The position numbers and the translations under genes were made by a program. The notes under the pieces are model-generated. The model made no database searches. It was not told the origin of the DNA and saw nothing but the letters and a program-made list of their open reading frames with translations. Positions 3,437 through 62,387 of a stretch of DNA of 64,000 nt are shown in pieces; within the stretch, counting starts at the first letter, position 1; every line of letters begins with the position of its first letter. Source of the DNA: Zygnema cylindricum (Eukaryota > Streptophyta > Zygnematophyceae > Zygnematales > Zygnemataceae). The stretch lies in contig JBBHKE010002693.1 of NCBI GenBank assembly GCA_037447655.1, positions 64,001 to 128,000 on the forward strand, given 5' to 3'.

Positions 3437-4370
3437 ATTTCGTGAGAAACTTCACCCCTGTGAAGGCAAGAATCCCTTAAGTGGATAGCAAAAAGAATCT
3501 CTCAATTTGCTCCCTTGAGCAGTAAATAATGGAAGGTTAAGGTTGACCTTTTGTACAGCAGCTCTTTGGGAGAGAGGGTCCTATCTTCTTATTTTTCTAA
3601 GTGCTATCTCTCTCACAGACTCTATCTACTGATGTACGGAGCCAACCAGATTACAGTTTAGTACACAAAAGTACACCTGCCGGTGTACTTTCTGTACGGA
3701 TAGTGTACGACATGGCCTAAATGGCAACACGTGGTATGTCCGTATTCGCTCCCTTAATCCTCAGAGATGTTGCGATCCAATGTCAATCCGCCACGTGTCA
3801 TCCAATGTGGCGATGACCACAAACCGCCGAAATCCTCTTGCGCGATCTCGGCGTTAATTCCGGCCGTCCGATTAAATTAACATTTAATCGTAGCCATAAT
3901 AAATACATGCGCGGTATTCGTTTCATTAAAGAAATAAATGCACGGTATTGGTTTCTTATCCGTACCGTAATCCGTACTTTTACATTACAAGATCTATGTA
4001 TCCCGTAAACAATTACAGTTAAATGAATTATCCTACCTCATAATGTTTAATTAAATATCAAACCATATAGTACGTACTAGACATAACGGCTAAGGCTACC
4101 GGCTACTGGCTGTCTGCCGTCCGGTAGGTAGCAGGATCAAATCCTGTGGCCGGCACTTACCTTTTAGTAAATAAACCCCTAACTAATATATATTTCCCGT
4201 AAACCTCTGGATAGCCTAGGTAGCCATGGCTCTAGCTCCCTCTCCAATTTCTCAGTGACTGCGACAAGTTTGAGAGTTGGAGAGAGAAGTTAGAGGTAGA
4301 CTGCCTCGGCTTCTTTCTATATTTCTATTTAGACCTAGAAAATACTTTAAATGGACCATTAATTTCTACA
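3437..4370 (-). mobile_element. Truncated copia LTR inserted in gypsy G1
   Basis: Its right edge is the reverse complement of the type A LTR start (TGTAGAAATTAATGGTCC), ending exactly at 4370, where gypsy pol resumes in frame. Its left part lacks the usual terminal block (reverse of ...GAGTTTCA) and starts instead near the stretch that normally lies about 130 bases inside the LTR. No clear target-site duplication is visible, consistent with deletion at the left edge. Confidence 0.75.
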
Positions 4371-5589
4371 GAAGGACCCGACTTCAACTCAAAAGAAAGT
4401 GACGACACCGGAAAGACTTCCGAAGAGGCCCCAGAAGTCGTGACAAAACTTCTCGAGGAGTACGTAGATGTTTTTCCACCCAAGCTCCCCGAGGGCTTAC
4501 CTCCGAAGCGCGAAGTAGACCACAAGATAGAGCTTGTTCTCGGAGCGGTACCCCCGGCTAATTGGATGTACAAGATGAGTTACACCGAATTGGACGAACT
4601 CAAAAAGCAACTCGCGGAGTTGGTCGATGCCGAAGCTATAAAACCGAGCAAGTCACCGTATGGAGCCCCCGTTCTCTTCGTGAATAAAAAATATGGAGGT
4701 TTTCGTATGTGTGTGGACTACCGAGCGCTAAACAAGTTAACGGTGAAGAATGCCTACCCTTTACCGAGAATAGACGAATTGTTGGATCGACTTCGAGGTG
4801 CTAAATATTTCTCAAAAATAGATTTGCGGAGCGGTTATCACCAGATTAGAATTGCAAAGGAGGATGTGGAAAAGACGGCGTTTAGAACTCGTTATGGCCA
4901 TTTCCAGTTTCGAGTAATGCCCTTCGGGTTGACCAATGCGCCGGCGACTTTTATGCATCTGATGAACTCCATCTTTCGGCAATATGTGGATGCGTTTGTA
5001 ATCGTTTTTCTAGACGACATCTTGGCGTATAGCCGAACGCTGGAGGATCACATGAAGCACCTACGGACGGTCCTACAAGTCTTTCGGGAAAATAAGTTGT
5101 ACGCTAAGAGGAGTAAATGTGACTTCTTGAAGGAGAAAATTGATTTTCTGGGCCATGTGGTGAGCCGGGACGGAATCGCAGTGGATCCAAACAAAACGAG
5201 GGCCGTAAGGTGTGGCCGCAGCCAGGGAATATTACGAAATTACAGAGCTTTCTAGGATTATTCTCCTACTATCGTTGTTTCGTCGAAGGTTTCGCAAAAA
5301 TCGCTGCACCATTCACGGAATTACTCAAGAATGACGTGCCCTACGAGTGGAAATCGGCGCAAGGGGCAGCTTTTAACACGCTAAAGGAGCGGTTGGTTAC
5401 TACCCCAGTGTTAGCTGTTCCCGACCAGGACTTACCCTGGACGATAATTTCAGACGCTAGCGATACGGCTATTGGAGCGATCCTTATGTAGGATCAAGGA
5501 AAACGCCTACAACCCATTGCCTACGACAGTCGAAAACTAAAAGCATCGGAGCTGAACTGGGCCACCCATGAAAAGGAGACAATTGCGAT
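4371..5589 (+). pseudogene. Ty3/gypsy reverse transcriptase and start of RNase H (G1)
   Basis: This is the RT domain. Landmarks in order are the entry block [62 protein letters not shown] and the catalytic FLDDILAYS, with both aspartates kept. A frameshift near 5210-5250 moves the reading into the frame carrying [16 protein letters not shown], followed by the RNase H start (SDASDTAIGAILM) and a TAG. RNase H is cut off at 5589 by insertion of a gag-only copia derivative; the rest of RNase H and the integrase N-terminus are missing. Confidence 0.88.
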
Positions 5590-10126: not shown

Positions 10127-10198
10127 GAGCTAGTGGCACAGTGGTAGTGCGTTGGCAGCTGAAGTGAAAGGTCCCAGGTTCGAACCCTGGCCGGCTCA
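10127..10198 (+). tRNA. tRNA-like cloverleaf in TRIM 5' LTR (probable tRNA relic or Pol III promoter)
   Basis: It has an A box (TGGCACAGTGG) and B box (GGTTCGAACCC) at tRNA spacing. The D stem GCAC/GTGC and T stem CCAGG/CCTGG pair fully, and the acceptor stem pairs at six of seven positions. The anticodon loop AGCTGAA lacks U33 and this copy has one mismatch in the stem, so decoding function is unlikely. Confidence 0.55.
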
Positions 10199-10412: not shown

Positions 10413-10484
10413 GAGCTGGTGGCACAGTGGTAGTGCGTTCGCAGCTGAAGTGAAAGGTCCCAGGTTCGAACCCTGGCCGGCTCA
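10413..10484 (+). tRNA. tRNA-like cloverleaf in TRIM 3' LTR
   Basis: All stems form. The acceptor GAGCTGG pairs with CCGGCTC (one G-T), D stem GCAC/GTGC, anticodon stem TTCGC/GTGAA (one G-T), a 5-base variable loop, T stem CCAGG/CCTGG with loop TTCGAAC, and discriminator A. The loop AGCTGAA would place CTG as anticodon but has G instead of U33. No encoded CCA or Pol III T-run directly follows. Confidence 0.6.
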
Positions 10485-20177: not shown

Positions 20178-20497
20178 GACTTCAGCCCTCGGTACTGGCG
20201 TCCCGGCTTCATGTGTGTGATAAAAGCATGATGTTTGAGAGAGCAAACTCGTATGGTTTCACAGGTAGTAGGGACTTCTATATTGGAATGCATACTTTTT
20301 TCCGGAGCAAGTCTTTTACCAGTTGACTTAAAACGTTTTTGTCTTGACAGCTCATGCTGAGTGCCTCATAAAGTGACGCGCTTTGTCAGAGTGCCCCTTT
20401 GGTTTTGTAAATTGTTTTGTTTTTTTAATTAAAGTAACAGCAAGATCAATGGGATGCAGATTGTTGGCCGTATGTCGTAAAACTAGAGTACGAAATT

Positions 20498-20695
20498 GTC
20501 GTGCATGAAGGCAATCAAGAGCGAACATGCATTATTACCAACGAAGTCATGCGTCAAACGCATATAAAAAAAAAATGATACTGGACGAACATAGACCAAC
20601 AAAAATATATACACAATGAGAAAGTAGGAGTGTAAATATGACAAAAGAAAGAAAAGGAAAGAATACTCCCCTAACGTGGAGTGACCCCTATAATT
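20498..20695 (-). repeat. 200-bp direct repeat, left copy
   Basis: It runs from TGTCGTGCATGAAGGCAA to GTGACCCCTATAATT and recurs at 21834-22034 with about 90% identity. On the - strand the copy starts TGTAAATTATAGGGG, which looks like an LTR start. Confidence 0.75.
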
Positions 20696-21833
20696 TACAC
20701 TAAGCCACGAGGTAGCCACTAGGCTCTTGGGTCTCTATCGTATTCTCTACAAGAGTCATCTCGAAAAGGCAACAAAACAAGTAAATAATTCCAACCAAAA
20801 ACAAGGAAAACTCCAAATTCGGCCAAGATTCACTTTTCCATTCCCAACCGAAATACAAACAACACAAATACAAATGCCCCAAACCGTTCAGCTGTCCGTG
20901 GGAGGCGTAGCTAGATTCGGATGCTTCTCCACACGAACTCCAATCCACCACTTCCTAAAAATGACACAAGTTGGAGGGAAACCTTCCGGACTTGGCTTTG
21001 AGCCGCGTGGATTAAAAAGCGTGGGCTGAAACACAAGGAAGAATACACGTGAACTATATAGCCTCTACAGCTAGCTAGCAAAAGAAAAAAAGAAACTTGA
21101 GCAGTTAGTGAGAGAGAGAGCAAGAGAAAAGCTCCGTTGCCAAGAGAAAATTCTTGTCCAAAAGTTAGCAATTCTAAGTCTGAAAATAGACTAAGTATTA
21201 GCCACGCTATGCCTACGCAAACCCTTACCTAAGTCTAGGCTAGTTCACATGAACGAACTACTTAAGTTGTTTGGGCAATAGGCGACCAACATCATCTGGC
21301 GTACGCATTACAAAATCCACTGTTCGAGGGTAAAAACCCTCCCTAACTACATGCGTGCGCGAACCTACATGGGTTCGCCACTTAAATAAATGAAATGTAT
21401 CGCAGCGTCTCCAATATGCCAAGGGATCGCGATTCGTCGCCAAACAATACTCGGCGTCTATACTCGAAAATCGCGTGCATACGCACGAAACGAAACATAC
21501 CGCACGAAATACTTAGAAAATCGCGACCCGTCGCCCAAACGATATTCGCGTCTATACTCCAAAATCCCGTACCTAAGAACGAAACAACACAAGTCGCACT
21601 AAATTAGTACATGTTCCATTTGATGTGTACGCGAATTGCGTTTACGTCACAAAAAACTGAACTGACGGTGCCACATAAGTGACGTGAGCGAAAATCATAT
21701 GTGCGTGCATCATATCTTGCGCGCGTGGCAAAAATCGTGCGTGCGTGCGGAATATCGTACATGGGTTCAAAATATCGTAAGTGCGTGCAAATATCGTGCG
21801 AGCGTGCTAACCGACATCATTCGGCATGACAGC
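20696..21833. other. Non-coding sequence between the 200-bp direct repeats
   Basis: No gene was recognised. It contains an imperfect tandem duplication of about 90 bp at 21420-21590 (both units with TCGCGACCCGTCGCC-like and CGTCTATACTC motifs) and a cluster of short repeats around CGTGCGTGC at 21690-21810. It may be the body of the G2 3' LTR. Confidence 0.4.
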
Positions 21834-22034
21834 TGTCGTGCATGAAGGCAAGCAAGAGCGAACATGCATTACAACCAGCGAAGTCATGCTTGCAAACGCA
21901 TATCCAAAATAAAATGATACTGGACGAACATAGACCAACAAAAATATATACACAATGAGAAAGTAGGAGTGTAAATATGACAAAAGAAAGAAAAGGGAAG
22001 AATACTTCCCTAATGTGGAGTGACCCCTATAATT
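21834..22034 (-). repeat. 200-bp direct repeat, right copy; probable start of the G2 3' LTR
   Basis: This is the second copy of the repeat at 20498-20695. On the - strand it follows the purine-rich tract GGAGCTGGGCGGGGG at about 22035-22050, just downstream of the G2 integrase end, which is where the polypurine tract and 3' LTR start are expected. Confidence 0.55.
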
Positions 22035-22086
22035 CCCCCGCCCAGCTCCTTAGCCTGCGGAGGAGCTGGTCAAAACCGCCGACAGC

Positions 22087-23506
22087 TCACGACAGCCATG
22101 GCAGAACCAATAGCCAGATGGCACAGCCGTCAATGGAGGAACTAAGCACTCCATGTGGATACCCTGGTTGCAATGGTCGCACAAGAGCATGGAAGTCTCG
22201 CTGTCTGCTCGCCTTCAGATGGTACACTCCGTCGCCTCGGTGATCGGCATTCGCATCGGGCCCATATCCTGTGACAAATGAGGTAAAGTAACAAGGTGCA
22301 CAGTTTTTTGAATGTTCTCGCATCGTCCTCGTATCCGCACCCTGCAAACCGAACATCTCGTTGGCATCCATTTCCACCACACGAAGAATGTGTGGTGAAA
22401 CATTTGTGTCCAAAGTATCGAACGACTGGCGTCGGAGGTACACGTAATCGCCGACCCGGTAGGATTTCTGTTGTGGCTTGTAAATGCCACTCCGCGTGGT
22501 GGCAAACCTTAAAGTATCCCGATGTTGGGCAATCTGCAAATTATCAAAAGCCATGGGCATCTCACGAGCAAAAAGCAAAGCATGGCGAGTCAGTTAATCC
22601 AAAAATATGGTGTTAGACATTAGAGGCAAAGGTAAACTTACTGCTTTCTGAATATTCCAACCGAGCAAGGGTGCTCGACCGAAGAGAATATTTTACGGGC
22701 TGAAATTAGCCAAGCTAGCCTATGCGGACATCCGGTAGCCCATGGTGATATAACCCTAGGATTTGTCCCAGACTGAGATGTGTTTCTCCAAACAATGCTT
22801 TTGGAGAGCCCGCTTGAAAGTTTGGACAGCTCGTTCCGCCAAGCCATCGGCTTTTGGGTGATCACGACTCGTCCGACGATGATCAATTAAAGCTTCATCC
22901 ATTATCTCTTGAAATTCCCCTCGGAACTCTGTACCCTAGTCCGTGAGAACCTTAAGGCATGAGAACGTGCTCTTTAAAAGCAGTGGTGGTCAATTTAGTG
23001 GTATTGTGGGGAAGAGCGACCACCTCTACCCACTTGCTAAAATTTTCAATCATTATCATGATGCATTATTTCCCCTTTCGAGATAAGGGATACGGTTCGG
23101 CATGGTCCACGGACCAGCGATAAAACAATCCTCTAATGGGCAATGGCTGTAGAGACACTAGCCGATTAGAGAAAGAGGTGCGTAACCGGTCGAATGAGGC
23201 GAATTTGTGGAGATTGGCCGCCACATCCGCTTGCATTCCGGACCACCAATAGCGTGCCTGTACAAGGCTCAAAGTACGCTCGGTGCCGTAGTGGCCGAGC
23301 TCGGTATGTATCTGCTCAATCAAGGACAAGCGCTCGGTTCGCCAGGGGACATGCAGATGACTGCAGTCCGCCAGCAATCGAACTAAAGATCCGCCGAGCC
23401 ACAGATAATTTTTGGCTCGTTTTTTACTTGGTCTTCCTCCTTGGCGGTAGTTCCAGGCCGAAAGGTTTGAATGGAGAGGAAGAGGATTAATGGGCCGTCG
23501 CACCAC
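22087..23506 (-). pseudogene. Ty3/gypsy integrase (G2)
   Basis: Reading leftwards: the zinc-binding region has both His (HTELGHYGTERTL) but the two Cys positions read FASF, so metal binding is lost. The core has VDHAEPYPLSRKGK with the first Asp, a stop, ENFSKWVEVVALPHNTTKLT, and the final catalytic Glu block HPKADGLAERAVQTFKRAL near 22830. The C-terminal part reads SYRVGDYVYLRRQ, HILRVVEMDANEMFGLQGAD and HSKNCAPC. No chromodomain is visible. Several stops and frameshifts make it inactive. This NCAPC-type C-terminus differs from G1, so G2 is a separate gypsy lineage. Confidence 0.87.
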
Positions 23507-23599
23507 GGATCTGTGGTCGGCCGAGGGTGAGGAATAGAAGAGAGATGGTAAGTGATATACGAACTAGCCGACATGGCAGGTACCTTGTCCTTGTTGAAA

Positions 23600-24350
23600 T
23601 CTTGCCGGACACCGTTATCGGTGGTCCGAGATAGTGGATTCCGCGAAATCCCGTCAACGTTCAAGCTTAACAAACCGGGCCGATGGATGATCTCAACGTC
23701 GTACTCTATTAAAATTAAAGCCCATCGGGCAAGCTTCCTTGAAAGCTTATCGTTGGTCATCAATTAATGAAGGGGTTGATGGTCAGTTAGGAGCGTGAAT
23801 GGCTTACCGTCAAGATAATGTCGAAAATGAACAATACCCCATACCGAGGCAAGACATTCACCCTCGTAACTAGTGTTATAAGATTCAGCTAGGTTATTGC
23901 TCCGGCTGGCGTATGCCACTAGGTATTCCTCTCCATTCAACTAGTTATTGCTACGACTTGCGTATGCCACTATGTATACCTCTCCATTCAACTCTCTTTG
24001 CTTTAAAATGGCCGCAATGCCAAGCTTCCCGAATCGGTTTGAAGGCAAAGGGGAAGCTTGTGGTTAGGAGGTCGAAGAATGGGAGCGCTTGAAAGGGCGG
24101 TTTTCAGTTTTTGAAACGCTTCTACTTGAGCGGGTCCCCAAACAAAAGGCACTTCATTTTTGAGAAGGCCATTGAGGGGAGAAGCAATCGTACTAAAATT
24201 CAGTACAAAACGACGGTAATAATAGGCTAGTCTAAGAAAAGCCCTCAGACTAGTGAGATCGATGGGGGCAGGCACTTTGGTGATCGCCTCTACCTTAGCT
24301 TCCAAGGGAGTGATGCCCTTAGCTGAAATAAAATGGCCGAGATAGGGCAC
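23600..24350 (-). pseudogene. Ty3/gypsy RNase H and linker (G2)
   Basis: It starts MPYLGHFISAKGITPLEAKV and LAYYYRRFVLNFSTIASPL (RT connection), then the RNase H region with LQTDSGSLALRPF, YLVAYASRSNN, EGECLASVWGIVHFRHYLDG and the linker EYDVEIIHRPG. A frameshift near 24010 and a TAA near 23765 break it. About 50 bp around YLVAYASRSNN are duplicated in tandem (23892-23942 and 23943-23992). Confidence 0.82.
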
Positions 24351-25180
24351 TCCCTCCGCACAAAGTACACTTAGCTGGGTGATACTTCAACCCGACTTTC
24401 TTTAACTCGGTGATAACCCACTCAATATGGCGGGCGTGCTCCTCAACCGTGGCGGAAGCGATTATCAAGTCATCGATTTTGCACCGTGCAAATTTACATC
24501 TACCCAACATCGAATCCATGAGTTTTTGAAACACGGCGGGTGCGTTTTTAAGACCGAAAGGCATGACTGCCCATTCCCACCGACCATCACTGTCCCAAAA
24601 TGCAGTTTTATGTCGATCTCTTTCCTCGATTTCAATCTGGTTAAACCTTTGACTTAAGTCAAGCATGCTAAAAAACTTCGCACCACCTACATGGTCAAAT
24701 ATTTCCTCCGCTAGAGGCATAGGGTGGCGGTCTTTAACGGTCAGGGCATTGAGCTTTCGGTAGTCCCCACACATTCTTCGCTCAGTAAAATTTCCGTCGG
24801 AATCTCTCTTCCTAGGCATGACTTTGGGGGCAGCAAAGGTGGAATCCGACCGATAGATAAGACCGGCTTCTTCTAATTCTGCGCATCTTTTGTCCACCAT
24901 CTCCCATTTCATTTCAGAGAGACGGTGTTTCGGCTTAAAGATACGTTGATCATCCTCAAGATCGATTGACATTTTGTAAATAGAATGACGTCCAAGGTCA
25001 TTCATGGAGAAAGCAAACCCGTCTATATAACATAAAACTGTGTCACTAAGCAATTCATGTTCCGAAGGGGCCAAACTAGTACCAAATTTCCACTTCGGGG
25101 CCTCCGAGCTTTTAATGGTTAAAGTTTCCATGGCTTGAGAAAATGCCAGTTGTTCATCGGCAATGAGATATTTGCCTAAT
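24319..25180 (-). pseudogene. Ty3/gypsy reverse transcriptase (G2)
   Basis: This 270-codon open stretch holds the RT fingers and palm. In order: SDSTFAAPKVMPRKRD, RMCGDYRKLNALTVKDRHPM, FFSMLDLSQRFNQIEIEE, WAVMPFGLKNAPAVF and the active site CKIDDLIIAS. The last retains both Asp but has Lys in place of the usual Tyr, and QGFNQ-type Gly is Arg, so activity is doubtful even though the stretch is open. It follows the methyltransferase domain with about 320 bases of linker. Confidence 0.85.
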
Positions 25181-25499
25181 TCATACGATATCGGTGCTTG
25201 CTAAAGGCAATTCACTCGTGGTGCCTGCTACGCGTCGGAAATGCAACTGTCCAGTGCGGTGCCGGACTGGGAAACGATGAAATTGTGGATTGAATGGCTG
25301 TAGAGGCCGGGATTTCTCAAGATATATGATTGGGGTTGAGGAAATCATGGATAGAGATGTCCTTAACTTCAGGTGTGAGAGAAGGGAAGAGAAAAAACTG
25401 AAATAGATTTCCCTTGAGACTAGGAGAGGTGCGAGAGGGAACATGACGTGAAGGAGCCGGCGTATCCCCCCCCCCAACTGGTTGCACGGGTTGATTCTG

Positions 25500-26470
25500 T
25501 GCATAGCGACCAGCTGCAAGGCTGAGACCTAAGACAAATGATAAAGAGTGAGGATCCATGACCCTACCCAACAAAATGCAACGCTGTCTATCCGTAAGGC
25601 CGGAGGACGCATTAGTGCTTGGAATAAAATACATGAGATGCTCCCGTTCTGTGGCCGTAGGCTCCTCTAACTCTCCAATGACATTATTCCGGAGCGTGCT
25701 TGGACCGTTATGAGAGTATGCATGGGAATTAGGGTAAGACACTAAAGTAAGAAGGACCTTGACTAGTTTGCCAAGTACATTGATGTTGTAATTCGGAGGG
25801 TAGTCAGTTTGGACACATGATTGGACTAGGTGAATGGGAAGCAAAGCGGTCGTAATGTCTTTAGTGGGAGGTCTTACAAACAAATTAGCCTCACGAAGAC
25901 GACCAACATCGATTAGGTTTGTCCATTTGGAGAGAACCGATGTGCCAAGGACCCCTGCCGAGCGACATCAATAATTTGCGGGGGTCCGATAAGGTGTTCT
26001 ATACGCTTATAGTGAGCCAAAACTGTAAGGCGAGGATCATTATAAGCGGCGACGTTCTCTTAAATGTATCCGACAAGCTTAGCCATGGTTTGAAGAAAAT
26101 GAAAGACCCTCAAAAGCTCAAAAACAATTTGGTACGGGGATTTGCCAAACCAAAACCTTTGCCTGTCCGAGACATACCTTGACACTCCCACCCCCCGAAA
26201 ACAAGGTCTATCGGTTTGACATCCCGTAGATGATGATTACTAAAGATGCGGATGTCTTGTGGAAGAGCAATGTGCATGTGTAGAAAGGCTGACTTTGGAA
26301 ACAACTGTGGATACTGTGAATGTAGGAGATTACAGTGGTGCAATTGTGCTTTTTTAGCTAATGCATCAATTTCTACTGCATAGTAGTGACGGATGGGGAG
26401 ACCATTCCGTAAACATGACAATAGTAATGTCTCGTCCTAGCGAATAAATCTAAAATAAAGACCACGTTTG
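25500..26470 (-). pseudogene. Cytosine-5 DNA methyltransferase domain within gypsy G2 polyprotein
   Basis: C5 methyltransferases move a methyl group from S-adenosylmethionine to cytosine. In order on the - strand: motif I as FILDLFA (26440-26460, then a one-base frameshift before TLLSCLRNGL), motif II-like YYAVEID, PQDIRIF, motif IV IDLVFGGWECQGMSRTGKG (about 26150-26200, catalytic Cys kept, Glu where Pro is canonical) and NPRTKLF. Motif VI ENVAA follows near 26050 after a TAA, then DPRLTVLAHYKRIEHLIGP, ARQGSLAHRF and a C-terminal block EPTATEREHLMYF with LGRVMDPHSLSFVLG. The order is not permuted as in plant DRM enzymes. Motif I is in the same frame as the upstream protease, so this was part of the polyprotein. 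Stops and frameshifts show decay. Confidence 0.82.
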
Positions 26471-27230
26471 TATGAGGGCTCGGCTGTACGGGCTTCGAAT
26501 TGATAGGAAGGAAACCCAAAGGATCGAATGCAACTTTAGGTATAGGAGGGATGGTTGTTAATGGAATAGATAATATGGACTTATAAATATTGTTAAATGT
26601 GTGAGAATTGATATGAAAGTCGGGCTCCGCAAAGAGCTCGGTTAAAGGAGAAATATCTCGCAAGATTTTTTCGGCCGACAAGGAGTGGAAAATCTCCTCC
26701 CTAACGGAGTTCCTTGAAAAAACGGGAAGAGCCGAAGCCGAATGGGCCATGGTGGGAAAAGCTCCGCGGGCGGAAATGAGAGAGAGACATATTTTGTGCT
26801 CCGAAAAGTGTGTCAATCGATAAGAAAATGTTTGGTCGTGCATGTCCACACCACCACCGACTCGAAATATAACATCTTGGCCCACTAAACACTTGTAATC
26901 GTTGTATTTAGTGACTAATGCATGAAAAGAAATTTGAACGGACTCATTTTCGGTTCTTGTTTGAAACCGAAAAATGAGCGGGTCCTTTTTGATTCCCAAG
27001 ACCGGCTCCGTAGTCTCAGCCGAAGTGAGGAGTCGGGTGGCTGAAGCTTGAAGCTTGTCTGTTGTTTGACAAAGCTTCATGGCAAATCCGGATCCGAGGA
27101 TCACGGGTTTGGCCCTAGTGTCCATGGGAGGAAGAGTGGGGTAAACACCGTTCACCGAGAATGATCCGCGAGATTTATCAAGGAAACTGATTTGTGGATC
27201 GAGATAACGACGCTCTTCCGTAGTAACTGG
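26471..27230 (-). pseudogene. Ty3/gypsy protease and linker to methyltransferase (G2)
   Basis: The open stretch from 27155 has a retropepsin-like pattern: LPPMDTRAKPVILGSGFAMK, then CLVGQDVIFRVGGGVDMHDQ, the GxxFLxxxGAxVDxxD-type block. The catalytic D-T/S-G reads D-T-R, one G-to-A change from DTG, so it is inactive. About 150 residues of linker follow (FDPLGFLPINSKPVQPS) and lead without interruption into methyltransferase motif I. This continuity is the main reason to treat the methyltransferase as part of the element. Confidence 0.7.
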
Positions 27231-28330
27231 TTAAACCGCTAAAAGACTGCGGTTTAACTGCAGAGCCTTCAAAGCGGCTGCTGCTGCGACCTCATCAACG
27301 ACGGGAAGGGCTTTCCGTACATCCTTGATCATTGCTGAAAGAATACTGAATCGCTCCTTCACCCGATGAGCCTCATGAATAGTGCCATCCAATATGGTCA
27401 GTGCCTCCGCCGCGATGGTAGAAGTTGTTTCTTGTAGGGGAGCCAAAGACTCTGTTGCAAATGAGAGTGGGACACGCGAATTTTGTAATTTGCCCACTCA
27501 GTTATAGTCTGCTGAGCCTTTTTCAAATGTAGCCACCCGTTGTTGGACGGTGGAATCCCGAAGGGTTCGCCCGGCCAACGACGGCATGTGGACAACGGTC
27601 ATAGCCATCTTAGTAAATTGGGGTTTCATTTTCGCCATGAAAGCCGCAAATTGTCTTTCATCATGGCCGCCATTGTGGCTTGATGCTCGACCTTCTCTCT
27701 CTCTTTGCGAGAGATCTTAAGAGGAGCTTCCTCCTTCTCGGTGTCCTTAGGCGGAGTGACTGGTTTTGCGAAACGGGCGCGAATTCCGCCGTTCTTTATC
27801 TGATTTTGATAAGCAAAATTAGTGTCCTTGATGTGGTACCAATGGACATAATGTCCCTTTTGGTGGCAATGAGTGCAACTGGCCGCCTTGTCAGGACACA
27901 TGCGGGCATCGTGCTCGGTTTTTCCACATCGGAAACACATTCGGCTTCCTGGACTAATGGGTGGAGTTCCCATGGCTGGCGTCTTCTGGGGCCTATTAGG
28001 AGGCCATGGGTTTTTAGGTGGAGAAAGAGATGGATTAGCCAGTTCCCTGTGTGGAGGTTTGGCCTGCTCATGGGCGTCCCACCACGATGTCTGCATCTCA
28101 TACTCTACCACGTATTGAGAGCTTGCTCAAAGGTGAATTTTAGTCCATAAATCTGGTTGAGGTGGTTTTGGATAAACCTCTTTGATGGACCTAGAAATTG
28201 TCTCAAAATTTTTTGGACAGCCTCCGCATCGAACATGAGGTCTGGTAATGCCTCCCGCATGTTGTCCATAGCCTATTTCAGCCATGGAATACTCTCGGAA
28301 GCACCACAAAATTTCTAGACAGCCTCTGCA
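27231..28330 (-). pseudogene. Ty3/gypsy gag with two zinc knuckles (G2)
   Basis: Reading leftwards: a capsid-end region (MREALPDLMFDAEAVQKIL, FIQNHLNQIYGLKFTFEQAL), a stop, a Pro-rich linker, then zinc knuckle CFRCGKTEHDARMC and a second one, CTHCHQKGHYVHW, whose last Cys is Tyr. A charged region and an Ala/Leu helix (EVAAAAALKALQLNR) end at TAA near 27232. At least two frameshifts separate these pieces. The N-terminal part is disturbed by a 102-bp tandem duplication. Confidence 0.78.
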
Positions 28331-50039: not shown

Positions 50040-50119
50040 TGTTGAAATTAACAGATTTCTAGAGTATTTTCTAGGTTTAAATATGTTAGTATAAAAGGAA
50101 AAGAAAAGGACGGACAAAC
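50040..50119 (+). mobile_element. 3' LTR of type B copia, left part
   Basis: It starts TGTTGAAATTAACAG and is interrupted after CGGACAAAC by the gag-only element; the rest resumes at 54898. Confidence 0.9.
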
Positions 50120-51294
50120 TGAAACTCTGAGACCTCCATTGGCCCTCAGAGTATGCAGATCCAAAAGAAGCTAATCTAGATAGTGCCGACTCCAAGTTAA
50201 TTTAAACCCAAGTGACTGACCCCTTGACAGTCAGAACCCCAATTTATATTCACCCCTGTGAAATAACACTTTCTGTGTGCTCAGTTCCACCACAGAATGC
50301 AAAGTTAGAATATGAGATTTGGACACATTCACCCACTTTGACTTTCCCTTAGAAATACAGCCTCCCTGGCAGACAAAAACTCTGACCGACTACACCCCTG
50401 TGTAGCCTAGACTCCCCTGAGTCCGCAGCAAAAAGAATCACTGAAAATGGTCAAGTAAATTGATAGATATGGCTGGCCAAAGTTTGCCATTTATACAGAG
50501 TGCTCTCTGGGAGAGGCAGCTGCCTACCCAAAATTTTCTAAGTCCTATTCCCTCTCTAAAACTCTATCTACTGAAGTACGCCACCAATCAAATTACTGTA
50601 TCGTACAGAAAAGTACAGGTGCCGGTGTACTTTCTGTACGGCCATTGTACGACATGGCCAAAATGTCGACACGTGTCAAATCAGGATTAGTTCCTGTAAT
50701 CTCCGGAATTCCCGTAATCCAATGTTATTACGCCACGTGTTATCTGACGTGGCAAAGACCGTAAAACGCCAAAAGTACATTTCCGTGATCGCGGCGCCTA
50801 TCGCGGCCGTCCGATCAAAACCGGCTATAATCCTAGCCGCTGAAATTCGACGCGCGGTATTCGTTTCGCTATCGAAACAAATGCGCGGTATCCGTTCTGT
50901 CCCCATACCGTACTTCGTACTAAATCAAATTGTATCTATGTACAAAGTATCTATAAGCCGTTAAACGGATTTATCTACATACAAAGATTTATATATTTAT
51001 CAAACCTTATATATCGTAATATCATTCTTAGACTTAACGGCTAGAGCTAACGGCTAATGCCGATTGACGGACGGCAGGTACCAGGATCAATTCCTGCGTC
51101 CGGCAGCCTACTTTTGGTAAGTCTAATTCTCCCCCTGTCTTCTCTAGAGAGCCTAGGCAGCCATGGCTCTAGCTCCCTATCCAGCCTTCAGTGACTACAA
51201 CAAATGTGGGGGCTTGGATAGGGGAGTTAGAGGCAGACCGCCTCAGCTCTTTTTCTATCCTAATACAGACCTAGAAAATACCCAAATATCAACA
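50120..51294 (-). repeat. 3' LTR of the gag-only element
   Basis: It runs TGTTGATATTTGGG to GAGTTTCA on the - strand and is almost identical to 53718-54892. Confidence 0.93.
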
Positions 51295-51357
51295 CTCCCC
51301 TTATTTTCTAGTCTATTTTCTTTCAACTTCCACAAACAAGTAAACAAACACCCCCTC

Positions 51358-51512
51358 ATTTTTTTTTTTTCCTTTTCTTTTTCCTTTTTTCTTTTCCTTT
51401 CATAAAACTTAAGTATTTAACACAGTGCATTAAATGAACTGAAATGATAATTGCATCACACATTTTATTTAACATCCCTTTTTCCATAAATCCGAGCAAA
51501 GATTTTATCCAC
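51358..51512. repeat. 155-bp direct repeat flanking a TRIM LTR, left copy
   Basis: It matches 51787-51941 nearly base for base (from the poly-T tract to GCAAAGATTTTATCCAC). The repeated sequence encodes the VMKWIKSLLGFMEKGMLN region of the gag-only protein. Confidence 0.9.
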
Positions 51513-51779
51513 CGGTCAAACCATCCGCAATCCCGCTGGCTCCGATACCATGTTAGATTTCCTAGAAATCCGGGATTCGGCATGTCCCACACTTGGGAAA
51601 ATTGAGCCGGCCAGGGTTCGAACCTGGGACCTTTCACTTCAGCTGCGAACGCACCACCATTGTGCCACCTGCTCGATGTTGAGACTGGCGGGTCCGTACC
51701 CATTTATTACGGGCGGCTCGAGTATGGATATTTCCATATTCTACCCCGTATTGGACCGGCTTCACGTGCCAATCCAACA
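51513..51779 (-). mobile_element. Single TRIM LTR plus primer-binding site inside the gag-only element
   Basis: On the - strand it is one 229-bp TRIM LTR (51551-51779, TGTTGGATTGG to ATCTAACA), then TGGTATCGGAGCC and about 25 bp of internal TRIM sequence ending GGTTTGACC. No second LTR exists. The flanks are a 155-bp direct repeat rather than a 5-bp duplication. Confidence 0.88.
51604..51674 (-). tRNA. tRNA-like cloverleaf in the reverse-strand TRIM LTR
   Basis: A third copy of the TRIM tRNA-like sequence: A box TGGCACAATGG, B box GGTTCGAACCC, T stem CCAGG/CCTGG. One acceptor position mismatches. It shows that the tRNA-like part is a stable component of this LTR. Confidence 0.55.
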
Positions 51780-53737
51780 CCCCCCTCTTTTTTTTTTTTC
51801 CTTTTCTTTTTCCTTTTTTCTTTTCCTTTCATAAAACTTAAGTATTTAACACAGTGCATTAAATGAACTGAAATGATAATTGCATCACACATTTTATTTA
51901 ACATCCCTTTTTCCATAAATCCGAGCAAAGATTTTATCCACTTCATCACTCTTTCATCCACACACAAACCGATTTCCCTCTTGCGATCCAAACAGCCAGC
52001 CCCATTTTCAATCTGCAACATACACCCAGATGCTAACCCTTTTACAGGCACATCTTCACAAGTGATGTCACACCAAGTAGTGATGTCAAATCCATCCACC
52101 CCCAAATATTCCCAAAAAACACTAGTCCCCACTAAGTTCCTCATAAGATCTACATCTTTCGTACTCATATTTTTATCCATGATAATTACCCCATTTTCTG
52201 AACCTCCCTCACTCTCTCCCATGGAATTCTTTCCACTATTACTTTCTAATTTAATTCCCAATAAATATTTCTTCTCCCCTAAACCTTTAATCAAATATTT
52301 ATCTTCTCCCCTATCCTTTGAAACCTCTTCGAGTTTCACTTCTCCCCTTTCCTCAGAATCTGTTGAAGTCTCCCTTTCTGACCAGTTTTCTGGTTCCCTA
52401 TTATCTATAAAATTATCCTTATTAATTTTATCTTTCCCGTTTTCACTTATGGATCCTAGAACTGACTTTCTCATTTCTAAGTCATACACTCTACACTTCT
52501 CAACATCCTCAAGTACCTCCTCTCTCTTTACTTCCCTTATACCTCCAAAAGCACACTGTTGCCTTCGTGCAATTACTGTGTGCTTTTCTTTCTTCCCCAT
52601 ACTACTAATCCGGAGAAGCTCTAAAATATCTTCATCCTTTTTCTCCTCTTCCCCTTTTTCCTCCTCATCCACATTCCAACTTCTAAGTTTTTCCAAAGAA
52701 GGGCATTCCTCCATATAATGACCCGGTTCCCTACAAAAGAAGCAAGCCCCCTTTTTTAAAGCTCCCCTTTCTTTTCCTCTCCCTCTCTTTCCACCAAAGT
52801 TCCGATAAGGTTTACCTTTTTCTTTCTTTCTCTCATCAAGCTTCCGCTCGTCACCACCGTTCCTCTCATCACGATTCCGCTCGTCACCGCCGTTCCTCTC
52901 ATCACGCTTCCGCCAATCACCACCAGCTGAAAATGCATTGACCCTGTCCTTTCCCCTACGAAGCTCCAAAGTGCTTTCCTTCACAAGAATTATCCCCATG
53001 GTAAAGCTCCAAGTCCATGAGGAGCCATCCATTGCCTGCATACGACAAATTATGTTTTCGTACTCATCTGGGAGTTTCATAATCAGTGTATTAATCTTAC
53101 TCTCCTCAGATTCTACATATCCCGCACTAGTAAGCTCAACATATAACGCAGCAATATCATTGCAAAACTCTATCATGCTACCGCCTTTATAAACGTAGGC
53201 ATCTATTTCCTGTTTTACTAATTGCTGCCTCTGAATAGTCTCACTCTTATAAATCTGAGTTAGTGCTTCCCATATCTCTGAAGACTTGGTTAGACTTAAA
53301 AGAGTGATAGCTATCGACTTAGACACATATCTAAGTATGAGATGTTTTGCTATAGTGTTTTTGTATTCCCATATTTTTGTGTCATTTTCTTCAGTTTTAG
53401 TCCCTACATGTGGTACCATAGCTGAGAGCCTAGCTCCCCTCACCATAGGTGTCCCTTTTTCCTTCTCCCCTATTTCCCCATCCACGGAAAGGTTTTTCCC
53501 TTCACCTTCCGTTACATCTGAACTCCGGATGATATTCTGGGCAGTCTCAGATGATTCTCCGTAGTAAGCTCCTCCAAAGCCAGGTGGCGGACATCTCACT
53601 TGTCCCGCAACAATTCCCCATAAGTGCTTCTCGAAAAGCAATCCCTCCATTGTAAACGCCCAATACGTGAAGCCTGTTCCATCAAACATAGGCACCCTAG
53701 ATGGTGGGCCCATAACCTGAAACTCTGAGACCTCCAT
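51707..53737 (-). CDS. Gag-only copia protein, 676 codons, fused to RT/RNase H relics
   Basis: The start ATG lies 20 bases inside the 5' LTR (MEVSEFQVMGPPSRVPMFDG), so the frame crosses the primer-binding site. Residues about 120-260 are the UBN2-type gag core (YKNTIAKHLILRYVSKSIA, ETIQRQQLVKQEIDAYVYKG, KLPDEYENIICRMQAMDGSS). A charged DERNGGDERN repeat follows, then the zinc knuckle CFFCREPGHYMEEC at about residues 330-345. The last 300 residues are Glu/Lys/Ser-rich, with relics of pol (KYLLGIKLESN, NLVGTSVFWEYLGVDGFDIT, VMKWIKSLL) but no catalytic residues. The final 40 codons run into the TRIM insert; the native end would be near 51310. It is probably a virus-like-particle protein. Confidence 0.85.
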   Translation of the reverse strand: MEVSEFQVMGPPSRVPMFDGTGFTYWAFTMEGLLFEKHLWGIVAGQVRCPPPGFGGAYYGESSETAQNIIRSSDVTEGEGKNLSVDGEIGEKEKGTPMVRGARLSAMVPHVGTKTEENDTKIWEYKNTIAKHLILRYVSKSIAITLLSLTKSSEIWEALTQIYKSETIQRQQLVKQEIDAYVYKGGSMIEFCNDIAALYVELTSAGYVESEESKINTLIMKLPDEYENIICRMQAMDGSSWTWSFTMGIILVKESTLELRRGKDRVNAFSAGGDWRKRDERNGGDERNRDERNGGDERKLDERKKEKGKPYRNFGGKRGRGKERGALKKGACFFCREPGHYMEECPSLEKLRSWNVDEEEKGEEEKKDEDILELLRISSMGKKEKHTVIARRQQCAFGGIREVKREEVLEDVEKCRVYDLEMRKSVLGSISENGKDKINKDNFIDNREPENWSERETSTDSEERGEVKLEEVSKDRGEDKYLIKGLGEKKYLLGIKLESNSGKNSMGESEGGSENGVIIMDKNMSTKDVDLMRNLVGTSVFWEYLGVDGFDITTWCDITCEDVPVKGLASGCMLQIENGAGCLDRKREIGLCVDERVMKWIKSLLGFMEKGMLNKMCDAIIISVHLMHCVKYLSFMKGKEKRKKKRKKKKEGGVGLAREAGPIRGRIWKYPYSSRP
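51787..51941. repeat. 155-bp direct repeat flanking a TRIM LTR, right copy
   Basis: Partner of 51358-51512. It joins the TRIM LTR start through a C-run (ACACCCCCCTC) that is also present at the left copy, a possible template-switch point. Confidence 0.9.
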
Positions 53738-54892
53738 TGGCCCTCAGAGTATGCAGATCCAAAAGAAGCTAATCTAGATAGTGCCGACTCCAAGTTAATT
53801 TAAACCCAAGTGACTGACCCCTTGACAGTCAGAACCCCAATATATATTCACCCCTGTGAAATAACACTTTCTGTGTGCTCAGTTCCACCACAGAATGCAA
53901 AGTTAGAATATGAGATTTGGACACATTCACCCACTTTGACTTTCCCTTAGAAATACAGCCACCCTGGCAGACAAAAACTCTGACCGACTACACTCCTGTG
54001 TAGCCTAGACTCCCCTGAGTCCGCAGCAAAAAGAATCACTGAAAATGGTCAAGTAAATTGATAGATATGGCTGGCCAAAGTTTGCCATTTATACAGAGTG
54101 CTCTCTGGGAGAGGCAGCTGCCTACCCAAAATTTTCTAAGTCCTATTCCCTCTCTAAAACTCTATCTACTGAAGTACGCCACCAATCAAATTACTGTATC
54201 GTACAGAAAAGTACAGGTGCCGGTGTACTTTCTGTACGGCCATTGTACGACATGGCCAAAATGTCGACACGTGTCAAATCAGGATTAGTTCCTGTAATCT
54301 CCGGAATTCCCGTAATCCAATGTTATTACGCCACGTGTTATCTGACGTGGCAAAGACCGTAAAACGCCAAAAGTACATTTCCGTGATCGCGGCGCCTATC
54401 GCGGCCGTCCGATCAAAACCGGCTATAATCCTAGCCGCTGAAATTCGACGCGCGGTATTCGTTTCGCTATCGAAACAAATGCGCGGTATCCGTTCTGTCC
54501 CCATACCGTACTTCGTACTAAATCAAACTGTATCTATGTACAAAGTATCTATAAGCCGTTAAACGGATTTATCTACATACAAAGATTTATATATTTATCA
54601 AACCTTATATATCGTAATATCATTCTTAGACTTAACGGCTAGAGCTAACGGCTAATGCCGATTGACGGACGGCAGGTACCAGGATCAATTCCTGCGTCCG
54701 GCAGCCTACTTTTGGTAAGTCTAATTCTCCCCCTGTCTTCTCTAGAGAGCCTAGGCAGCCATGGCTCTAGCTCCCTATCCAGCCTTCAGTGACTACAACA
54801 AGTGTGGGGGCTTGGATAGGGGAGTTAGAGGCAGACCGCCTCAGCTCTTTTTCTATCCTAATACAGACCTAGAAAATACCCAAATATCAACA
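53718..54892 (-). repeat. 5' LTR of the gag-only element
   Basis: It is the partner of 50120-51294. The primer-binding site GGTTATGGGCCCACCA (reverse of 53702-53717) abuts its downstream end. Confidence 0.93.
54087..54350 (-). promoter_or_regulatory. LTR promoter of the gag-only element
   Basis: On the - strand TATAAAT (54087-54093) is preceded by CACGTG G-boxes at 54268-54273 and 54332-54337 and by the ACGT-core motif in TGACGTGG (54343-54350). These motifs are typical bZIP/bHLH sites. The same arrangement recurs in sister LTRs, suggesting that it is the U3 promoter. Response to light, ABA or stress is inference only. Confidence 0.55.
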
Positions 54893-54897
54893 CAAAC

Positions 54898-60886: not shown

Positions 60887-61668
60887 TGTAGAAATTAATG
60901 GTCCATTTAAAGTATTTTCTAGGTCTAAATAGAAATATAGAAAATGTCGAGACAGTCTACCTCTAACTTCTCCCTCCAACTCTCAAACTTGTCGCAGTCA
61001 CTGAGAAATTGGAGAGGGAGCTAGAGCCATGGCTACCTAGGCTAACCAGAAATTTACGGGATTATATATTAGTTAGGGATTTTATTGCTAAAAAGATAGT
61101 GTCGGCTACAGGATTTGAGCCTTGTACCTACCGGCCGGCAAGCAGACGGTAGATGGTAGCCTTAGCCGTTAAGTCTTCATCGAATGTTACGTAATATAGG
61201 GTATGATATTTAATTAAATGTTATTGAGTAGGAAAATTCATTTAACTATAACTGATTACGCGAGACATAGATCCATAATTGTAAAAGTAGGGATAGGGGT
61301 ACGGATAAGAAACCAATACCACGCATTTGTTTCTTTATAGAAAAGAATATCGCACATGCATTTATTACAGCTACGATTAAATATGAATTTAATCGGACGG
61401 CCGGAATTAACGCCGAGATCGCGGAAGAGGATTTCGGCGGTTTATGGACATCGCCACATCGGACGACACGTGGTGGAATAACATTAGATCGCGGCATCTC
61501 CGAGGATTACGGGAACGAATCTGGACATACCACGTGTCGACATTTAGGCCATATCGTACGATGTTCGTACAGAAAGTACATCGGCAGCTGTACTTTTGTG
61601 TACGAGCTGAATTTTGATTGGCTCCGTACATCAGTAGATAGAGTATGTGAGAGAGATAGGACTTAGAA
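60887..61668 (+). mobile_element. 3' LTR of type A copia, truncated
   Basis: It starts TGTAGAAATTAATGGTCC after the polypurine tract and matches the 5' LTR at 55495. It stops at GAGAGATAGGACTTAGAA, leaving off the last quarter; a minisatellite begins at the next base. Confidence 0.88.
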
Positions 61669-62387
61669 TGTTACCTAACTTACACAAATTGTTAGCGTTA
61701 ACAAGAATTGTTGTCTAACTTACACAAACTCTTAGCAATAACAAGAATTGATACCTAAATTACACTAGCTGTAAGCGATTACAAGAATTGTTATCTAACT
61801 CACACAACCTATTAGCTCTAACAAAAAGGGTTACCTAACTTACACAAACTGTTAGCGATAAGTGGAATTGTCACCTAAATTACACAAATTGTTAGCGATA
61901 ACCAGAACTGTTACCTAAATTACACAAACAGTAAGCGATAACAAGAATTGTTACCTAAATTACATAAACTGGCGCTAACAGGAATTGTTATCTAACTTAC
62001 ACAAACTGTTAGCGCTAACAATAATTGTTATATAACTTACACAAACTGTTAGCGCTACCAAGAATGGTCACCTAACTTACAAAAACTGTTAGCGATAAGA
62101 GGAATTATTACCTAACTTACACAAATGTTAACGCTAACAGGAATGTTTATCTAACTTACACAAACTCTTAGCGATAAGAGGAATTGTCACCTAAATTTAA
62201 AACTGTTAGCGATAACAAGAATTGTTACCTAAATTACACAAAGAATTAGCGATAAAAAGAATTGTTACCTAAATTACACAAAGAATTAGCGTTAAAAAGA
62301 ATTGTTACCTAAATTACACAAACAGGTAGCGATAACAGGAATTGTACCTAAATAACACAAACTGTTAGCGATAACAAGAATTGTTAC
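61669..62387. repeat. 40-bp minisatellite, 18 units
   Basis: The consensus begins TGTTACCTAACTTACACAAA and continues CTGTTAGCGATAACAAGAAT. I count 18 units (most exactly 40 bp, a few 37-39) plus six bases. Some units contain the perfect palindrome TGTTAGCGCTAACA. The array replaces the end of one LTR and abuts the first base of the next. Confidence 0.93.

Follow-up and report, generated by a model that had tools for sequence, protein, structure and literature searches.

A 64,000-nucleotide stretch of DNA from the alga Zygnema cylindricum (the window) contains, between sequences resembling the protease and the reverse transcriptase (RT) of a Ty3/gypsy retrotransposon, the motifs of a cytosine-5 DNA methyltransferase. 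This locus raises the question of whether the methyltransferase is a genuine part of the retroelement, to which class of enzymes it belongs and which role it could play there.

The window contains a broken Ty3/gypsy element with methyltransferase motifs

The analysis confirmed that a broken Ty3/gypsy element occupies positions 28287 to 20497 of the window on the minus strand and that a C5-methyltransferase lies within it, flanked by protease and RT (Table 1). When positions were rechecked, all motifs quoted in a preliminary description of this DNA were present on the minus strand, in the order given there and between protease and RT. Its statement that motif I shares one open frame with the protease region was likewise borne out.

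The methyltransferase of the window copy is interrupted: its pieces occupy three frames, the shifts lying near 26.44, 26.12 and 25.95 kb, and positions 26062-26060 form a stop in frame. The piece carrying HYYAVEID and GGWECQG (frame 26436-26110, minus strand) matched the Pfam family PF00145 with E 4.6e-4 and 20.2 bits, and the domain read through with X at the breaks scored 17.9 bits, slightly below the single piece. Both scores lie below the cut-off of 22 bits. The two other methyltransferase pieces matched no Pfam family, and the best solved relative of the read-through was DNMT3A (E 0.069). Taken alone, the window copy is weak, suggestive evidence for a methyltransferase, and its relatives decide. 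In protein databases the read-through query found 5 of 4533 candidates at E ≤0.1, all PF00145 proteins (best 1.9e-58), and a longer query found 8 of 4540 (best 4.9e-66, 41% identity). Because of these matches, and of many more in the algal genome itself, the similarity is not due to chance.

Other parts of the element are decayed as well. The protease frame had no Pfam match and reads GSG at 27095-27087, where the database protein P0006 has DTG; the active site of aspartic proteases is normally D-T/S-G. No PHD family match was obtained with Pfam for the window's own piece of the C-terminal PHD finger. Repeats B1, A2 and B2 are kept, whereas the 5' end (repeat A1, 5' UTR and start of gag) was not found, and no primer-binding site was identified in the element. 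A genomic copy, C449, is 87-89% identical to the window over 28259-21679 and 83% over 21510-20497. The window feature is a dead, 5'-truncated member of an abundant Ty3/gypsy family, the Pol of which includes a DNMT3-like enzyme ahead of RT and, behind the integrase, a C-terminal PHD finger.

Table 1. Features of the element in the window. Numbers are window positions.
Feature	Position	Strand	Evidence or remark
Ty3/gypsy element remains	20497-28287	-	Match to C449; protein match starting at 28287
gag part with zinc knuckle	27629-28287	-	Homologous to P0006 and C449; zf-CCHC below cut-off in window copy
Open frame: aspartic protease region and methyltransferase motif I	about 26373-27230	-	35% to P0006 protease
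DNMT3-like cytosine-5 methyltransferase domain, broken	25458-26495	-	Pfam piece, protein matches, motifs
Motif I, FILDLFA	26459-26439	-	
HYYAVEID	26388-26365	-	Read in window translation
Motif IV, GGWECQG (catalytic Cys; E for usual P)	26196-26176	-	Open genomic copies identical in ECQ
Motif VI, ENV	26059-26051	-	
Motif VIII, AHRF	25945-25934	-	AHRVR in most open copies
Motif IX/X region, EREHLMYF...LGRVMD	25649-25554	-	EREHLMYF 25649-25626; LGRVMD 25571-25554
Reverse transcriptase	24319-25200	-	RVT_1 5.1e-24
RNase H region, broken	23599-24386	-	RT_RNaseH_2 7.5e-9; P0008 match 23937-23599, 52%
Integrase: zinc-binding domain and broken DDE core	22255-23497	-	Integrase_H2C2 6.4e-12; P0007, P0012 and P0013 matches
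C-terminal PHD finger remains	22092-22286	-	Match to P0012 residues 865-929, 37%
Polypurine-like tract	22035-22052	-	Not purely purine in window copy; adjoins B1
Split repeat B1	21834-22034	-	94.0% identity to B2
Repeat A2, GC spacer at its start	20696-21833	-	Junction CATGCACGACA-GC-TGTCATGCCG, same as in intact copies
Split repeat B2	20497-20695	-	3' end ...GCACGACA

Further repeats were noted elsewhere in the window. A young copia element (50116-54893) has LTRs of 1180 bases with 99.5% identity and an open frame of 678 aa (51710-53743, minus strand); when 677 residues of this frame were used as a query, none of the 8000 candidates scored reached E 1e-20. Repeated DNA also contains three tRNA-Gln(CTG)-like sequences (10127-10198 and 10413-10484, plus strand; 51603-51674, minus strand); two sit in a tandem, and the third is enclosed by copia LTRs. 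Gypsy pieces at 171-641 and 4236-5252 (plus strand) include, judged by eye, a chromodomain-like end, YLVRWKGYGAEDDSW, and a 339-aa frame with RT-like motifs and RT similarity. At 61665-62387 a unit of about 40 bases is repeated in tandem.

The methyltransferase is part of an abundant family in the host genome

The host genome (353 Mb, 2689 contigs) was searched with the methyltransferase piece of the window. At least 150 matches including the piece itself were obtained (150 scored of 1033 candidates), the others with 65-89% identity. Pooled with the matches of a type B query (see below), this list gave at least 234 distinct methyltransferase places on 197 contigs, decayed places included. Twenty places were fetched from the methyltransferase match list, most of them picked for long frames. 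A protease lies upstream on the same strand in all 20, and RT follows downstream on the same strand in 18 (only in part in L108); L099 and L102 have no RT downstream. One copy, L089, is a single 2395-aa frame extending from gag to the PHD finger. In this frame Pfam recognized zf-CCHC (3e-5), DNA_methylase (PF00145; 8.9e-13, 48.8 bits), RVT_1 (2.4e-28), H2C2 (4.5e-16), rve (6.9e-13) and PHD (5.5e-12), while Asp_protease_2 (3.8e-4, 21.6 bits) stayed below its cut-off of 24.3. The proposal that a C5-methyltransferase forms part of a Ty3/gypsy polyprotein is thus upheld: the fetched relatives (n = 20) do not lack the segment, which follows a protease in all of them and precedes RT in 18, and an open relative exists in the same genome.

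The broken window copy, with its Pfam score below the cut-off, could also have suggested a host gene or unrelated sequence hit by a gypsy insertion. This explanation is refuted by the open genomic copies; the same order recurs in 20/20 (protease) and 18/20 (RT) fetched copies, once in a single frame. Protease and methyltransferase also occur together in one database protein in P0006 (protease above the Pfam cut-off) and in P0011 (methyltransferase by Pfam, protease below the cut-off). By tblastn, the protease region of the window is matched by P0001 and P0009 as well. The C-terminal stretch of P0006 resembles, by eye, the start of the RT frame of the window. The chance that an insertion created the arrangement is negligible.

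Using RT as the query, a listed methyltransferase was found upstream in 65 of 135 rows, mostly about 0.9 kb away. Ten of the other 70 rows were read, and nine of these hold methyltransferase remains (short ones in L114 and L118); the tenth, L109, has no methyltransferase, protease or gag. The PF00145 profile gave at least 123 matches in the genome, all above the cut-off (123 scored of 782 candidates). While 39 of them are in the lists of the window family, 84 are outside, and these may include host enzymes. In a search with a 116-aa segment of human DNMT3A, which can overlook exons, no host DNMT3 ranked ahead of the element copies among the 150 rows scored (of 513 candidates), a minority of which were assigned individually.

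The preliminary description had called the copy land-plant-like. This label is not supported. The GRAS profile had 27 matches on 12 contigs of the host genome, and the AUX_IAA and radial-spoke profiles had none, zeros that are weak and do not show absence. Given the distribution of these families, the combination fits a zygnematophycean alga better than a land plant; it suggests a streptophyte that lacks flagella and the auxin repressors of land plants.

The enzyme is DNMT3-like by sequence

The class of the enzyme was assessed by comparison with solved structures. For the unchanged domain of L089, chains of DNMT3A, DNMT3B and DNMT3C made up the 29 best of 44 rows, starting at 9.1e-11; HhaI (0.0024) came next, and DNMT2 reached 0.19. 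A profile built from the window and five relatives gave DNMT3A with 1.6e-21, followed by 4onj, presumably a DRM (2.6e-9), DRM2 (5.6e-9) and HaeIII (1.7e-6). Chains of DNMT1 and CMT exist in the PDB; no row named after either was among the 56 of this profile search. The motif order I-IV-VI-VIII-X is canonical in the window and in the open copies, and no DRM-type rearrangement was seen. Motif IV reads ECQ in the window and in 12 of 12 open rows (10 distinct copies), so the proline expected of DNMT3 is absent, and PCQ is present in the relatives P0002, P0003, P0004, P0005 and P0009. Because this proline is missing, we name the methyltransferase of the window family DNMT3-like, after its nearest class by sequence.

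Methylation of RNA has been proposed for another retroelement class, SymbioLINE, in the accessible text of de Mendoza et al. (PMC5890265). For the window family, an activity on RNA (the genomic RNA or the tRNA primer) instead of DNA appears improbable, given that the solved enzymes closest to it, DNMT3A/B/C, act on DNA and that the RNA enzyme DNMT2 hardly scores.

Related elements carry the enzyme at two positions

In the window family the full gypsy Pol set (protease, RT, RNase H and DDE integrase) was found, with RT before integrase, which is the gypsy order, and with the methyltransferase before RT. A second arrangement (type B) was met among the database relatives. P0008 has the order RT, RNase H, methyltransferase, integrase, and in P0007, P0012 and P0013 the methyltransferase precedes the integrase (in P0007 and P0013 recognized by alignment, not by Pfam). 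P0012 and P0013 include a PHD finger. P0004 and P0010 contain only PF00145 by Pfam, and visual inspection of their flanks placed them in type B. The tag of P0010, Chrzof1, is taken here to denote a gene model of Chromochloris zofingiensis. All six type B relatives share with the window family a related DNMT3-like domain, and P0007, P0008, P0012 and P0013 also a gypsy-type integrase. These four differ in the position of the enzyme, which lies before the integrase (in P0008 between RNase H and integrase) and not before RT.

In a tree of 15 rows, the before-RT rows together with P0002 were separated from the before-integrase rows, including P0010, together with P0003 (split support 100/99); for P0002 and P0003 no place of the enzyme within an element was read. 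P0005 and the DNMT3A segment were left out of this tree because of very long branches and, for the segment, very partial coverage. An earlier tree that included P0005 and the short DNMT3A segment gave a split of 80/96, with P0005 on the before-RT side. Either a separate insertion at each position or a single move from one to the other would agree with the split. Clades that follow position point to long retention of the enzyme.

A type B methyltransferase query gave at least 122 matches in the host genome (122 scored of 1611). Among the 38 that overlap the list of the window family, a listed RT is downstream in 22 and upstream in none, with no RT listed for 16. The 84 outside this list include 31 with a listed RT downstream, none with one upstream and 53 with no RT listed. 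The RT spacing in those 31 is 560-715 bases in 29 and 324-328 in two, the latter being usual for the window family. Because the spacing differs, a second abundant family that also has the enzyme before RT is probably present in the same genome. As the matches listed are lower bounds, some of the 84 probably belong to the window family. Examples of the putative second family (in G000, C1374:27017-29338, C544:127654-129990 and C1920:169189-171514, among others) place the DNMT3-like domain some 0.6 kb upstream of RT and have frames of up to 1525 aa. Separately, at G000 C961:71638-72384 (minus strand) an RT match lies inside a 5743-aa open frame, unusually long for a retroelement.

Phage relatives were also considered as elements of the same kind and rejected. 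The 80 loci kept (123 confirmed, on viral contigs) were 22-35% identical to the methyltransferase, and the RT query matched none of the 80 at E 0.01.

Integrated copies have split repeats and target duplications

Intact copies are organized as A1, internal region, polypurine tract, B1, GC, A2 and B2. Six copies were tested for these repeats. The complete series A1-B1-A2-B2 was seen in C1344, C829, C2602 and C449; C1915 showed A1, the end of B1 and A2 (the stretch ends there), and A1 was not found in C1407. In C1344, A1 and A2 are 100% identical over 931 bases and B1 and B2 99.6% identical over about 243 bases; hence, this insertion looks young. The outer ends of intact copies are TGTCATGCC and GCACGACA, i.e. 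TG...CA. Target duplications of 4 bp are exact in three of the four copies with both ends read (TTGG, AAGG and CCCC), and the more diverged C449 is flanked by TCAT and GCAT.

Since the polypurine tract precedes B, standard reverse transcription would yield LTRs of the form B-A; the integrated form instead has A first and B last. The junction between B1 and A2, GACA-GC-TGTC, is palindromic. We infer that a circle with two LTRs, if opened at this inner junction, would yield exactly the integrated form.

Purifying selection and CpG content

Selection was analyzed across three subfamilies, consisting of L089, of L091 and L092, and of L093, L094 and L107 (L093 without a methyltransferase row). Between them the methyltransferase is 79-84% identical and pS is 0.76-0.82, near saturation. 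The pN/pS ratio of the methyltransferase is 0.14-0.18, compared with 0.17-0.24 for gag, 0.17-0.24 for protease, 0.10-0.17 for PHD, 0.06-0.11 for integrase and 0.04-0.05 for RT. Within subfamilies the values for the methyltransferase are noisier (median 0.21, 12 of 66 pairs), and this set of 12 rows counts two copies twice (L083 lies in L092 and L084 in L091). The methyltransferase is under purifying selection, which is real yet not exceptional, as gag and protease evolve similarly or slightly faster and RT and integrase more slowly.

The observed/expected ratio of CpG is 0.78-0.94 in eight fetched copies and 0.94 in the window element (20497-28260); in the flanks it is 0.90 on the left and 0.59 on the right, copia-rich side (30001-64000). 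The copies are not depleted of CpG and so show no mutational trace of heavy CG methylation, which argues, weakly, against such methylation of these copies. This observation bears on the idea that host chromatin is the main target of the enzyme. After release by the protease, the enzyme would methylate de novo at the insertion site or genome-wide and thereby restrain the element or its competitors. Such an activity would suit a family with at least 234 distinct places, as well as the finding that an element copy, C10, is the best genome row of the human DNMT3A segment among the 150 rows scored (of 513 candidates; assigned in part). Against it, no sign of heavy methylation appears in the CpG content, and Klebsormidium nitens harbors such elements yet has a land-plant-like methylome according to the accessible text of PMC5890265. 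We consider a main action on host chromatin unlikely, if still worth weighing.

A putative role in methylation of the element's own cDNA

The likeliest role of the enzyme, in our view, is methylation of the element's own new cDNA. The enzyme would be released by the protease or would remain in Pol inside the particle, and would act on freshly synthesized double-stranded cDNA ahead of integration, probably at CG. Each new copy would thus arrive in the genome pre-marked, which may help it escape recognition as foreign, reduce harm to the host or protect the cDNA. Integration may be guided to a histone mark by the PHD finger, in the way of the chromodomains of chromoviruses. The domain order, the similarity to DNMT3, purifying selection, the clades by position and the CG methylation achieved by SymbioDIRS-Dnmt3 enzymes (see below) speak for this role; the undepleted CpG of the copies, the ECQ of motif IV and the silent K. 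nitens relative speak against it. As a whole, the best explanation of the locus is a decayed copy of an abundant family that would methylate its own new cDNA, to which we assign a probability of about 0.5.

Alternatively, the protein could have lost catalysis and contribute to Pol structurally or by binding DNA, a reading that the ECQ in place of PCQ in motif IV would favor. It also draws on the relative from K. nitens: in yeast, the KnitGypsy-Dnmt3 domain gave no de novo methylation, but neither did human DNMT3B, and the authors regarded the result as inconclusive, whereas de novo methylation of CG was obtained with two SymbioDIRS-Dnmt3 enzymes, which come from a dinoflagellate element (accessible text of PMC5890265). 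The silence of the K. nitens enzyme lowers our confidence in self-methylation and raises that in an inactive enzyme. The open copies (12 rows, 10 distinct), however, keep the catalytic Cys, EN, AHR and motif X, apart from L101, which is changed in EN and AHR, and L102, changed once after AHR, and the methyltransferase is under purifying selection. On balance, loss of catalysis has a rather small chance of being correct.

A more speculative extension of self-methylation combines several of these features. The PHD finger would read a histone mark and pick the site, and the DNMT3-like enzyme would write 5mC on the cDNA. The integrated form A-internal-B-GC-A-B would arise by opening of a two-LTR circle at the palindromic B/A junction within the LTR rather than at the cDNA ends. 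The elements may, in addition, be the main source of DNMT3-type activity in the host, as the scored candidates included no host DNMT3 with a stronger match. We regard this combined scheme as doubtful.

DNA methylation is usually directed at transposons; in this case the methylating type of enzyme belongs to an abundant transposon family and is under selection. The open copies can be used for biochemistry, and the alga provides a second host for methylome work. The before-RT and before-integrase forms offer a natural comparison of which step of the life cycle uses methylation.

Comparison with known systems

According to the accessible text of a 2019 paper (PMC6338049), methylase-bearing retrotransposons occur in green algae, charophytes and other groups, and land plants such as tracheophytes lack them. 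DNMT3 in LTR elements (there called Copia) and in DIRS elements is cited as previously reported in that of a 2025 paper (PMC12344493), which also describes a ChloroDNMT group in chlorophytes and charophytes. Apart from KnitGypsy-Dnmt3, no other report of such an element in a streptophyte was found in the open-access literature, which leaves most subscription papers outside.

The parallel with a charophyte retroelement drawn in the preliminary description is real. As described in PMC5890265 (de Mendoza et al. 2018; accessible text), KnitGypsy-Dnmt3 of K. nitens is an LTR gypsy element with a DNMT3-type enzyme in Pol, a Ka/Ks below 0.2 and repeats arranged as in DIRS elements (A-coding-B-A-B). 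It agrees with the window family in gypsy domains, an unrearranged DNMT3-type enzyme in the Pol frame, purifying selection, A-B-A-B repeats and the lack of introns. It differs in its host and in that the window family has many copies, K. nitens having fewer such copies than Symbiodinium; the window family has a PHD finger, a term absent from the main text of PMC5890265.

SymbioDIRS-Dnmt3 of Symbiodinium, as far as the accessible text of the same paper describes it, likewise combines a DNMT3-type enzyme in Pol with RT and A-B-A-B repeats. It is not a gypsy element and uses a tyrosine recombinase, whereas the window family has a DDE integrase, TG...CA ends and 4-bp duplications; in the scanned pieces of the window element and of L089 (part of the element) rve and H2C2 were found and no tyrosine recombinase. 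Cellular DNMT3 and plant DRM enzymes belong to the same catalytic domain family as the window enzyme. However, DRM is rearranged and DNMT3 genes are cellular, whereas the enzyme of the window family is canonical in order and lies inside a retroelement frame.

The closest known system is KnitGypsy-Dnmt3, compared by description, as no K. nitens sequence was identified among the matches, and the element type itself is already known. Beyond what the accessible text of these papers reports, the family described here and its relatives add the PHD finger, two positions of the enzyme in two clades and target duplications.
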